DNA of 9,598 nt. It comes from Gammaproteobacteria bacterium (lineage in GTDB: Bacteria > Pseudomonadota > Gammaproteobacteria > Acidiferrobacterales > Acidiferrobacteraceae). How positions within the stretch are numbered: position 1 is the first letter of the stretch; each line of letters begins with the position of its first letter. The translations under genes and the position numbers were made by a program. The stretch covers positions 1 to 9,598 of the forward strand of contig JAPTWT010000220.1 in assembly GCA_028064935.1 (NCBI GenBank), read 5' to 3'. The notes beneath the pieces were generated by a model. The model had not been told where the DNA came from. It ran no database searches and saw only the letters and a list, made by a program, of their open reading frames with translations. Shown here one piece after another: positions 3-9,256 of the stretch.

Positions 3-2855
3 TCAGTCTCCGATCTCGAACTCAGCGTTTTTGAACTTCAGCACGTTGCAGTTCTCCTTCACCGCGCGCTGCAGCCCGTCGTCGAAACCGGTGGCCGATT
101 CGGCCTGGATCTCGATGGCAATCTTGACCTTCACGCCGGTGTGAATGGTGAACTGCTGGACGACCTCGTCGACTAGGTCGGCGAACTGCTTCTTTGCCAG
201 GATCGGGTCGAGTTCGATGCTGCCGTAGAACTGCTTCTTCAAGGCCTGGCCGGCGGCGCCCGTGCCTGACGGGTATCCGCCCTTGCCCGAGTCTTCGACC
301 CGGGGTGTGTCGCCGCTACCGCCGGTGGTCACAGATGTTGTGGATGCTCCCCCGCTGGTGTCAGCGGCTTTGGCGCGCGAGGCTTCCTCCGCTGCGCGCA
401 GTGCCTCCATGTACGCCGCCGCCGCAGACGGCTCGATCAGCAGCAGCGACGAGTCCATGATCAACGACGTGCGCTTGCCGTAGATGAAACCGACGTAGCG
501 GCCATCCTCTTTGCCCTGCGCGAAGCCAAAGAAGTCGCGACTCTCCGCGCCCGCAGCCATCGTCCTCTGGAAGACGGTGTCGTCCTTCAATCGCGGCAGA
601 TAGAGCTGCTGGCAGCTCTGCTGCCAGACGTTCAAGGCGCTGGTCTCCTTGGCGTCATCCTTCCAGAACCAGTCTTTCAGCACCTTGGCCAGGTGGATCG
701 GTGCCCACTCACCGATGAGCAGTTCGTTCTCCTTGAGCACGCGCTCGATCTCCTGTGACCAGTTCTGCGCGCCGGGGTTGACCTGGAAGTGCTCCCAGCG
801 CAGCTCGGACAAGCCCTTTCCGGGGCGCGCCTCCTGCATCGGCGCCACGATCCACTTGTAGGTCTCGCGGATCATGCGGCGCACGGTCTCCTCGGCCTGC
901 TCCAGGCTAGCGTTCGCCTGCTTGGCCATCAGGTTGTCGAGGACGATGCGGTTGTCCTTGTAGTCGGCAACGATGCTGCGCCAGGCCAGAAACGAGCGGA
1001 CGTGGTCTTTCAGGCGACTGACGCTGTCGTAATCGGCTGCCAGGAAGATCAGGCGGTTCTGTTTGATCCTAGGCTGCTCGCCGCGCTTCTTCAGAGTCTC
1101 GGTGGCGCGGTCAATCGCCAGACTCTGACCACTCTTACTGAACGCAGCTTCGGGTGGCAGCACCACCAAACGCAGAGCCCAGTCGTCGGGCACATCGCTG
1201 CTGTCAGTGAAGACATGAGTGCCAGCGAACACACCGCTGGCGAATCCGCGCTGCACACGCTCTCGGACGGTTGGGAACACGTCCTCCTTGTCCTGGAAAC
1301 GGCGCTTGCGCTCCTCCATCTCACGCCGCAGGTTCGGCCGTGTGTCGAGCCAGAAGCGATTGTTGGCGTGGTTGAGGTAGTGGAGGCGCTCAATAAGGCG
1401 TCGCAGCGCATCCTTGAATAATCCAATCTGCTGACCGGGCTGGACGATTCCGAGCATCACGCGTTCGAGCTCCAGACCGCGCACCAACTGATTCGTTGTG
1501 CTGGGCGCGCTGCCCAGGAACACCGACCGCGCCGCGCGACGGCAGGCCTGCACGCTGCCGAAGCGCGTGTCCTTGTTCTCGATCTCGGTGGTCTCGGCAC
1601 GCTCACCGTCCACGTCACGTTCGAGCACCGGGTCCCAGCCTTGCGGTAGGTAGTAGATGACCTCGTTGCGCACGTCGGCGTCGTACAGCGGCAGGCTTCC
1701 CGGCATGATGAGCGGGTCGTTGTTGCCATCCTTCCACAGGCGGTGGATCACCTTGGCCATCAGTTTCAGCACCCCGCGCGTGCGCTGAAAGCTGTCCAGC
1801 GTGGACCAGTCCTCGTAGAGCCGGTCGAACACCTCGGGGTGGATGGGGTAGGCGTGGACTAGGCGCTCGAAGTAGCGACTCTCCTGCGTCTCCTGCGGGA
1901 AGTCGTCGCGGTTGGCGGTGTAGAAGTCCGCGAAGGCATGGCACACCGACTCCATCGCTAGTTTGTCGTTGATCGACGCGAACAAGCGCCGCCGTACGAT
2001 CTCGAACGCCTCTTCGGTCGCCACCGGCTTCCACAGCGCCTGCACGCGGCCGAAGTAGTGCGCCAGCGCCTCCAGCGCCTTCACGCCGCGCTGGCTGCCG
2101 GCTTCCTTATCGGACTCTGGCAACGATGCGAGCAGCACAGCGGTCGGCACGGCCTTCAGCGCCTCAGTCAGCGCCTGCACGAACGACAGGTTGGAATCGA
2201 ACGTACCCCCGCTGAGGGCTTTGCCTTCTTCGAACTGGCGCACGTATGCCACCAGCTCGTCTATGAGGATCACGCACGGCGCACACCGCGCCAGCAACGT
2301 CTCCAGCACCGCCTTGCCAGGCGAAGTACCCGACGTGTCGGCATCGGCCACCAGAGCGTAACCTTCCGCGTCGCCCAGCTGCCATGCCAGGTCGCCCCAA
2401 AGCGTACGCACGACCTGCCCATCACGCTTGATGGGTTGGTTGGGTGACGACTTAATGCCGTCGAGCACCGCGACGCGAGCGCGGGGCAGTTCCGTGACCT
2501 GCGCTGCATCCAGAATGGCCGCGACGCCCTGCAGATCGCTCGCAGGAGCCTCGCCCTTGGCCAGGTGATAGACCGCCAGCATCGTGTGCGTTTTGCCCCC
2601 GCCGAACGCGGTCTGCAACTGGATGACCGGGTCGCCGCCCTTGCCTGTTAGGCGCTTGACCACCGAGTCGAGAAGCAGGCGCATGCCCTCAGTGATGAAG
2701 GTGCGCTGGAAGAACAGCTCCGCGTTCTGGTACTCGGGTGAGGCTGAGCCCTGATGAACCCGCGAGATGTCGGCCGCGAACTCCGCCTGTTGGAACGTCC
2801 CCTTGAGAACATCTTCGTGGGGAATAGCGATTTCACGCCAAGGTTTGAGCGCCAT
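3..2855 (-). CDS. DUF499 (COG1483-type) AAA+/P-loop ATPase of defence operon
   Basis: Complete 950-residue cytoplasmic ATPase, ending with TGA at bases 3-5. The N-terminus (PWREIAIPHEDVLKGTFQQA, then AEFAADI and RTFITEG near residue 51) is typical of DUF499 proteins. Walker A is FGGGKTH at residues 84-90 (K88) and Walker B is VILIDE at 195-200 (D199, E200). A strand at 239-246 followed by PESD may carry the sensor, and FQRTRGVLKLMA around 356-367 may supply an arginine finger. Residues about 818-868 are a Ser/Gly/Thr/Ala-rich low-complexity linker before a small C-terminal domain (870-950). The ATG at 2853-2855 follows GGGAG with a 9-base spacer and starts 18 bases after the methyltransferase stop. 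DUF499 proteins are known as neighbours of DUF1156 methylases in defence islands; their exact activity is unsettled. A role as ATP-driven motor or regulator of the complex is inference. The family call is strong. Confidence 0.9.
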   Translation of the reverse strand: MALKPWREIAIPHEDVLKGTFQQAEFAADISRVHQGSASPEYQNAELFFQRTFITEGMRLLLDSVVKRLTGKGGDPVIQLQTAFGGGKTHTMLAVYHLAKGEAPASDLQGVAAILDAAQVTELPRARVAVLDGIKSSPNQPIKRDGQVVRTLWGDLAWQLGDAEGYALVADADTSGTSPGKAVLETLLARCAPCVILIDELVAYVRQFEEGKALSGGTFDSNLSFVQALTEALKAVPTAVLLASLPESDKEAGSQRGVKALEALAHYFGRVQALWKPVATEEAFEIVRRRLFASINDKLAMESVCHAFADFYTANRDDFPQETQESRYFERLVHAYPIHPEVFDRLYEDWSTLDSFQRTRGVLKLMAKVIHRLWKDGNNDPLIMPGSLPLYDADVRNEVIYYLPQGWDPVLERDVDGERAETTEIENKDTRFGSVQACRRAARSVFLGSAPSTTNQLVRGLELERVMLGIVQPGQQIGLFKDALRRLIERLHYLNHANNRFWLDTRPNLRREMEERKRRFQDKEDVFPTVRERVQRGFASGVFAGTHVFTDSSDVPDDWALRLVVLPPEAAFSKSGQSLAIDRATETLKKRGEQPRIKQNRLIFLAADYDSVSRLKDHVRSFLAWRSIVADYKDNRIVLDNLMAKQANASLEQAEETVRRMIRETYKWIVAPMQEARPGKGLSELRWEHFQVNPGAQNWSQEIERVLKENELLIGEWAPIHLAKVLKDWFWKDDAKETSALNVWQQSCQQLYLPRLKDDTVFQRTMAAGAESRDFFGFAQGKEDGRYVGFIYGKRTSLIMDSSLLLIEPSAAAAYMEALRAAEEASRAKAADTSGGASTTSVTTGGSGDTPRVEDSGKGGYPSGTGAAGQALKKQFYGSIELDPILAKKQFADLVDEVVQQFTIHTGVKVKIAIEIQAESATGFDDGLQRAVKENCNVLKFKNAEFEIGD

Positions 2856-9256: not shown

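Follow-up and report, generated by a model that had tools for sequence, protein, structure and literature searches.

Hma (helicase-methylase-ATPase) operons raise the question which of their three proteins selects the DNA that is to be marked or attacked. We considered one such operon, occupying positions 9256 to 3 of a 9,598-nucleotide stretch (the window) of contig JAPTWT010000220.1 from the gammaproteobacterial assembly GCA_028064935.1. Payne et al. introduced the name in 2021 for a putative defence system of three genes, of which they recorded 1,638 instances (PMC8565338). The recognition step has so far merely been predicted in the literature examined, though the system spans 26 phyla (PMC8565338). 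This putative system is thought to mark the DNA of its own cell and to cut unmarked foreign DNA. Comparison of the window with related operons points to the methylase, HmaB. We regard it as an even call whether Hma is a modular machine, resembling restriction-modification, in which HmaB is the exchangeable specificity module for self-marking and attack, and the HmaA-HmaC core accepts HmaB proteins that differ in lineage. Such replacement would mostly affect the insert that separates core strands 2 and 3 and its surroundings; in the window, most or all of the gene would have been replaced. The plainer statement that the window encodes a complete Hma system whose HmaB sets the target of both restriction and methylation, on a shared HmaA-HmaC core, is probable, judging from sequence and analogy. 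The operon itself is ordinary; of wider interest is the exchange of specificity regions in HmaB.

The genes hmaA, hmaB and hmaC follow each other in this order on the minus strand, are intact, and are separated by 14 and 18 bases; the window ends two bases beyond the stop codon of hmaC. The ATG at 5714 was taken as the start of hmaB; a start at the in-frame GTG at 5750 would make the gene overlap hmaA. The G+C content is 64.5% in hmaA, 58.5% in hmaB and 63.3% in hmaC. All three proteins match the PADLOC Hma models over the full length: HmaA with 2128.8 bits (residues 1-1174, profile positions 1-1172 of 1176), HmaB with 1355.6 bits (residues 2-946, profile 2-973 of 973), and HmaC with 1587 bits (residues 1-947, profile 1-940 of 941). 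Pfam assigns SNF2, ResIII, Helicase_C and NOV_C (PF13020, E 1e-20) to HmaA, DUF1156 (E 1.3e-28) to HmaB, and DUF499 (E 1.8e-32) to HmaC. The original prediction, made from the letters of the window, had proposed three large same-strand genes with these gaps, an SNF2-DUF3883 helicase, a DUF1156 methyltransferase and a DUF499 ATPase; the coordinates and Pfam agree, and the PADLOC run that it suggested returned full-length Hma for all three. For each protein the 120 listed relatives are closely homologous, and so the operon is not a chance arrangement.

For the analysis of related operons, 78 genome loci, mostly titled Proteobacteria, were fetched by similarity to the window HmaC. Because of this choice, the following linkage rates apply to close kin rather than to all Hma. 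HmaB was present in 61 of 62 loci that extend 4 kb or more upstream, and HmaA in 53 of 55 that extend 8 kb or more; where all three genes occur (56 loci), the order hmaA, hmaB, hmaC on one strand was observed in 55. No recurrent downstream gene was found, the largest downstream cluster covering 6 of 60 loci. Rare co-occurrence, which had been named in advance as evidence against a system, was thus not seen among these kin. From the full-length PADLOC matches, the HmaA/HmaB linkage and the lack of a recurrent downstream gene, the window operon is, by its sequence, a complete and compact three-gene copy of Hma and an ordinary member of this known system.

Identities, trees and motif counts were derived from the 34 loci with intact full-length HmaA, HmaB and HmaC, which together with the window make 35 rows. 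Trees were built from 22 of these rows (with 7 database proteins added for HmaB), or from 19 rows for the approximately unbiased (AU) tests on parts of HmaB. The AlphaFold alignments contained 35 rows (A1) and 50 of 121 HmaB rows (A2).

HmaB segment 441-550 has been exchanged between closely related operons. It is merely 36-54% identical in all 17 pairs whose HmaA proteins are at least 95% identical, and in the same pairs the nuclease region of HmaA (1045-1175) is 85-98% identical. Its identity is hardly higher in close operons than in distant ones, the median being 38-48% in every bin of HmaA identity from 60 to 100%. In loci L015 and L055 the segment is divergent though the remaining parts of HmaB are 92-97% identical. 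Four-fold silent sites of this pair agree at 92% in HmaA and 90% in HmaC 1-790, as against 52% in the segment (n=31), which indicates that the DNA was replaced, rather than the protein altered by selection alone. A near-identical allele of the segment (98%) occurs in L026 and L055, whose HmaA proteins are 90% identical. The segment was picked after the identity profiles had been viewed, and so its low identity is partly selected. This does not apply to a ranking of 55 intervals of the three proteins, where the 16 with the lowest conservation in close pairs comprise 14 from HmaB, 2 from HmaC and none from HmaA. From far to close pairs, intervals within HmaB 166-550 gain -5 to 8 points of identity, and those listed outside this region gain -5 to 20. 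The most variable interval outside HmaB is HmaC 826-880, with 72% identity in close pairs and 20% in far ones, a gain of 52. Judged by these alignments, exchange of HmaB is general among close-kin operons and not peculiar to the window. We did not find a description of it in the published literature on Hma and BREX-related (BR) systems that was searched; the supplements of PMC12839542, outside that search, may contain one.

The window is a case in which the exchange appears to involve most of the gene. Compared with the 34 intact relatives, its HmaA is up to 96% and its HmaC up to 95% identical, whereas its HmaB is 51-59% identical to every one; for locus L001 the values are 96%, 95% and 55%. 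Among the 120 listed database relatives of HmaB, 29 are at least 75% identical, 6 are 64-70% identical and 85 are at most 60% identical, whereas all 120 listed relatives are at least 82% identical for HmaC and at least 87% for HmaA. In the trees of HmaA and HmaC the window groups with L001 and L012 (support 96 in both), and in the HmaB tree it groups with the database proteins P0122, P0126 and P0128 (support 99-100). A clade of the window, L001 and L012 is rejected by AU tests on HmaB 1-195 (p 0.003) and 196-550 (p 0.0035). These data suggest that the window HmaB belongs to a rare lineage, different from that of its closest operon relatives. A search of 399 genomes of one order, 39 of which gave some match, yielded no member of this lineage at 60% identity or more, and a search of 144 genomes of one genus yielded one. 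Three matches were obtained in this genus search, among them L123, which shows the reverse pairing: relative to the window, its HmaB (1-836) is 88%, its HmaA (682-1175) 81% and its HmaC (1-394) 84% identical. The hmaB gene of L123 is interrupted. In the window, the G+C content of hmaB, lower than that of its two neighbours, is in line with an exchange.

The lowest identities in HmaB, including those of segment 441-550, fall mostly inside the insert that is predicted to recognise the target. In the AlphaFold2 model (mean predicted local distance difference test score, pLDDT, 82.5) residues 156-160 form core strand 2 and residues 529-533 core strand 3, and a large insert separates the two. This is the position given for BR methylases, where the target-recognition insert follows core strand 2 and precedes strand 3 (PMC12839542). 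HmaB has no PDB sequence relatives at E 0.01, and the 50 rows shown of a fold search contain mainly small-molecule methyltransferases, the best at E 8e-3. The DPPY motif of HmaB is taken by us to indicate adenine methylation.

The candidate effector is the C-terminal DUF3883/NOV_C domain of HmaA, a predicted nuclease according to motif and model. In 2013 DUF3883 on SNF2 helicases in DUF499 operons was described as a novel restriction-endonuclease domain (PMC3710099), and in 2020 an operon of DUF499, a COG1743 methylase and a helicase-nuclease was listed as a predicted restriction system (PMC7641849). The modelled domain has a PD-(D/E)XK-like fold. The closest PDB sequence match of HmaA is RapA, and the scored residues of its helicase Walker A and DEAH motifs are invariant in 35 of 35 aligned proteins. 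As the scored residues of HmaB motif I and DPPY and of HmaC Walker A and B are equally invariant, the earlier statement that the catalytic motifs are intact was right. The original prediction had sought the effector either in the DUF3883 domain or in a gene beyond base 1. The former is supported by the 2013 assignment, the motif and the fold, and the latter is not indicated by the relatives, whose largest downstream cluster covers 6 of 60 loci; nor is an effector missing, a nuclease-like NOV_C tail being already present on HmaA.

Taken together, HmaB would methylate adenine within a short target sequence of host DNA, with its specificity set chiefly by the insert that separates core strands 2 and 3. 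HmaC, a DUF499 AAA+ ATPase, may assemble or license the complex on DNA, and HmaA may translocate along DNA and cut it, when unmethylated and hence foreign, by its C-terminal PD-(D/E)XK domain. Specificity for both restriction and methylation would come from HmaB, and HmaA and HmaC would form a largely specificity-neutral core. HmaB is proposed as the source of specificity for restriction because HmaA, including its nuclease, stays near-identical while the target region of HmaB is replaced. For the same reason, an independent nuclease specificity that matches each new HmaB is unlikely, and the nuclease would either borrow the specificity of HmaB or recognise something other than a sequence. A precedent is PglX, the specificity factor of BREX for methylation and defence (PMC11341690).

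Several observations weigh against this scheme. The AU test does not reject the clade of the window, L001 and L012 for the whole of HmaB (p 0.106) and for HmaB 551-946 (p 0.108). Silent sites of the L015/L055 pair agree at 78% (1-195), 89% and 60% (551-946) in the flanking parts of HmaB, and thus the replacement extends beyond segment 441-550. Low gains occur outside the insert too (-5 at 1-55, -2 at 111-165, 3 at 606-660 and 4 at 661-715); the exchange exceeds the insert, and so the link to target recognition depends on the location of the identity minimum. Nor is HmaC entirely neutral, as by sequence it recombines too: its C-terminus is variable, with the last 160 residues of L012 61% identical to those of the window and the remainder 93%, and the whole HmaC of L072 has changed lineage and groups elsewhere (AU 8e-12, 7-row group). 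The nuclease model has a mean pLDDT of 75 with residues 1-4, 6-26 and 38-43 below 50, and a Foldseek search with it gave no PDB match at E <= 0.001. Finally, the activities of the proteins (methylation, ATPase and cutting), their assembly into a complex, the defence against phages and the dependence of restriction on HmaB are predictions from sequence, fold and analogy.

The variable tail of HmaC suggests another possibility, namely that HmaA and HmaC sense foreign DNA without HmaB, cued for example by stalled forks, by ends or by some feature of the phage, the HmaC C-terminus serving as sensor; HmaB would then mark only self, and its target would be free to change. We consider this doubtful, though less so than the other alternatives. 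HmaC 826-880 is indeed the most variable interval outside HmaB, but it follows ancestry, as seen from its large gain, whereas the intervals of HmaB 166-550 do not. Moreover, the HmaB segment differs in pairs where HmaC 791-950 is 94-97% identical (L023/L074, L015/L055, L055/L077, L037/L044 and the window/L001). Co-variation gives no support for a link of the segment with either partner: in the 31 pairs with HmaA at least 93% identical, the Spearman coefficient is 0.25 (p 0.17) with the HmaC tail and -0.10 (p 0.58) with the HmaA nuclease. Over all 595 pairs both correlations are positive (0.21 and 0.32), as expected from shared ancestry.

It is improbable that the HmaB pattern reflects relaxed constraint or rapid drift of a dispensable insert instead of specificity exchange. 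Low identity of the segment at every distance would be consistent with drift, but the identity is nearly flat from 60% to 100% of HmaA, silent sites of the segment differ in close pairs as well, and the 98% allele recurs in the different operons L026 and L055. In addition, 13 compared members of the window HmaB clade have a segment 74-97% identical to that of the window, and the segment is well modelled, with 10 of its 11 ten-residue blocks at pLDDT of at least 86. Least probable of all, and by a reader of these data hardly to be expected, is a distinct undescribed subtype with its effector beyond base 1. The window does stop at the hmaC stop codon, with its own downstream gene outside it, but the small downstream clusters of the relatives, the nuclease-like domain on HmaA and the full-length profile matches all argue otherwise. 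These readings overlap, and their likelihoods need not add up to one.

If HmaB alone sets the target of marking and attack, a swap of one gene could test the mechanism directly, and Hma, like BREX, would be a defence that can be retargeted through a single module. Operons could then come to target further phages through the exchange of one gene or a part of it. If HmaB does not set the target, the variable HmaC tail would be the prime candidate for a sensor.

Table. Positions of the hma genes and their domains and motifs in the window
Feature	Position	Strand	Basis or remark
hmaA: SNF2/SF2 helicase with C-terminal DUF3883/NOV_C nuclease domain (predicted), 1175 aa, GTG start	5729..9256	-	PADLOC, Pfam
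HmaA helicase core, residues 103-608	7433..8950	-	Pfam ResIII, SNF2-rel_dom, Helicase_C; Walker A/DEAH
HmaA NOV_C/DUF3883 domain, residues 1050-1139, predicted PD-(D/E)XK nuclease	5840..6109	-	
HmaA nuclease signature GWD (1078-1080) ... E1099-x-K1101	5954..6019	-	G, W, D, E, K invariant 35/35
hmaB: predicted DUF1156 DNA adenine methyltransferase, 946 aa	2874..5714	-	PADLOC, Pfam
HmaB motif I DPFAGGG, residues 137-143	5286..5306	-	five scored positions invariant 35/35
HmaB insert between core strands 2 and 3, residues ~180-525, predicted target-recognition region	4140..5177	-	AlphaFold2 model, PMC12839542
Most freely exchanged HmaB segment, residues 441-550	4065..4394	-	36-54% identity in close pairs
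HmaB catalytic motif IV DPPY, residues 552-555	4050..4061	-	invariant 35/35
hmaC: DUF499 AAA+ ATPase, 950 aa, ATG start, HEPN fusion not detected	3..2855	-	PADLOC, Pfam
HmaC Walker A FGGGKTH, residues 84-90	2586..2606	-	four scored positions invariant 35/35
HmaC Walker B ILIDEL, residues 196-201	2253..2270	-	D199, E200 invariant 35/35

The suggestion of a defence-type operon that combines a methylase with a helicase and an ATPase and is related in kind to BREX and DISARM is supported at the sequence level. That it is a variant of a described DUF499/DUF1156 system has also stood, the system being Hma, or the Type-1 DUF499-centred BR system of Rakesh and Krishnan 2026 (PMC12839542); as far as tested, a distinct subtype it is not. 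The window resembles Hma (PMC8565338) in holding all three genes at full length in a one-strand operon. It differs in the rare lineage of its HmaB and in the lack of a cargo gene, at least one of the two gaps not being tight in 43 of the 53 relatives measured. The text of PMC8565338 names HmaB an m5C methyltransferase, whereas the PADLOC-DB model, the DPPY motif and PMC12839542 indicate adenine.

Type-1 BR systems were described in 2446 taxa, 79% of them with a helicase-nuclease fusion (PMC12839542). The window shares with them the DUF499 ATPase, the DUF1156 N6-methyltransferase with a target-recognition insert after strand 2, and the SNF2 helicase with a C-terminal PD-(D/E)XK domain (PMC12839542); the methylated base of HmaB and the nuclease activity of HmaA are predicted. 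One difference is the N-terminal HEPN domain, reported in 1370 of 2446 taxa (PMC12839542) and absent from the window HmaC. A HEPN fusion had been considered because of the database name of P0075, and was rejected, as neither protein has the domain at Pfam E <= 10 and HmaC contains only DUF499; HmaC has no PDB sequence relatives at E 0.01. Another difference is the loss of the paired zinc-finger cysteines of the insert from the window HmaB. As a peculiarity of the window this was rejected, since by eye they are absent in 33 of 34 aligned relatives too. The sole relative that keeps paired cysteines in the insert, a possible zinc finger, is L021.

Type-2 BR systems have an N-terminal HKD (PLD) nuclease on the helicase, whereas HmaA contains no PLD family at Pfam E <= 0.001; the NCBIfam PLD-helicase model scores 178 against its cut-off of 1100, via the helicase region. 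No fourth gene, and thus no DUF3780 gene, lies between the three genes among the open reading frames (ORFs) of the window, whose scope ends at base 1. Type-3 BREX (BrxC, BrxXI, BrxHII, PglZ) has a homologous ATPase, a methylase with a nested target-recognition domain, and an SNF2 helicase (PMC12839542). However, HmaC matches only the HmaC and DUF499 models at E <= 0.001, and not the BrxC-type (DUF6079) ATPase, and the window helicase bears its own nuclease-like domain; no PglZ gene was found in the window, which ends at the hmaC stop. HmaA resembles DrmD of one class of DISARM, but with 369 bits it stays below the NCBIfam equivalog cut-off of 610, and no drmA or drmB genes occur in the window, its flanks lying outside.

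Extra DNA of more than 250 bases occurs in the hmaA-hmaB gap of 42 of 54 loci and in the hmaB-hmaC gap of 39 of 72 (e.g. L055:5420-6037, L056:1738-3099, L007:6719-8182). Ten representative gap genes match Septu PtuA and PtuB, PDC-M61, and the Hma-embedded candidates HEC-01, -02, -05, -08 and -09. Of the 53 loci in which both gaps could be measured, 10 have operons as compact as that of the window, among them 6 of the 8 loci whose HmaA is at least 93% identical to that of the window.

In 20 of 31 eligible loci (L003, L012, L018, L036 and others), a gene for a WYL-like regulator precedes hmaA in the same orientation at a distance of at most 600 bp, and Pfam confirmed the WYL domain in all four loci scanned. 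The 342 upstream bases of the window have no match to such a gene, and a simple scan of 9200-9598 gave no promoter. A divergent ORF starts at 9467 on the plus strand and runs for 44 residues to the window end at 9598; no search identified its product. A relaxase was considered and dropped, with no Pfam match at E <= 10 and none in plasmids at E 0.01 (E 7-8 at best). Among 300 genomes, 89 have a match to this ORF at E <= 1, the best being 0.03 and 0.06, and by eye the matching ORFs look unrelated.

No HmaB relative was found in 50,697 phage records at E 1e-20, and a PHROGs scan contained no Hma-like named family. All three genes were observed on IMG/VR contigs classed as viral (L079, L081, L082, L085, L087), and L082 has two HmaB-like matches adjoining each other. 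Of the 72,556 plasmid records in PLSDB, 68 carry a gene for an HmaB relative (E <= 1e-50), including 16 from Thermus and 14 from Rhodococcus.

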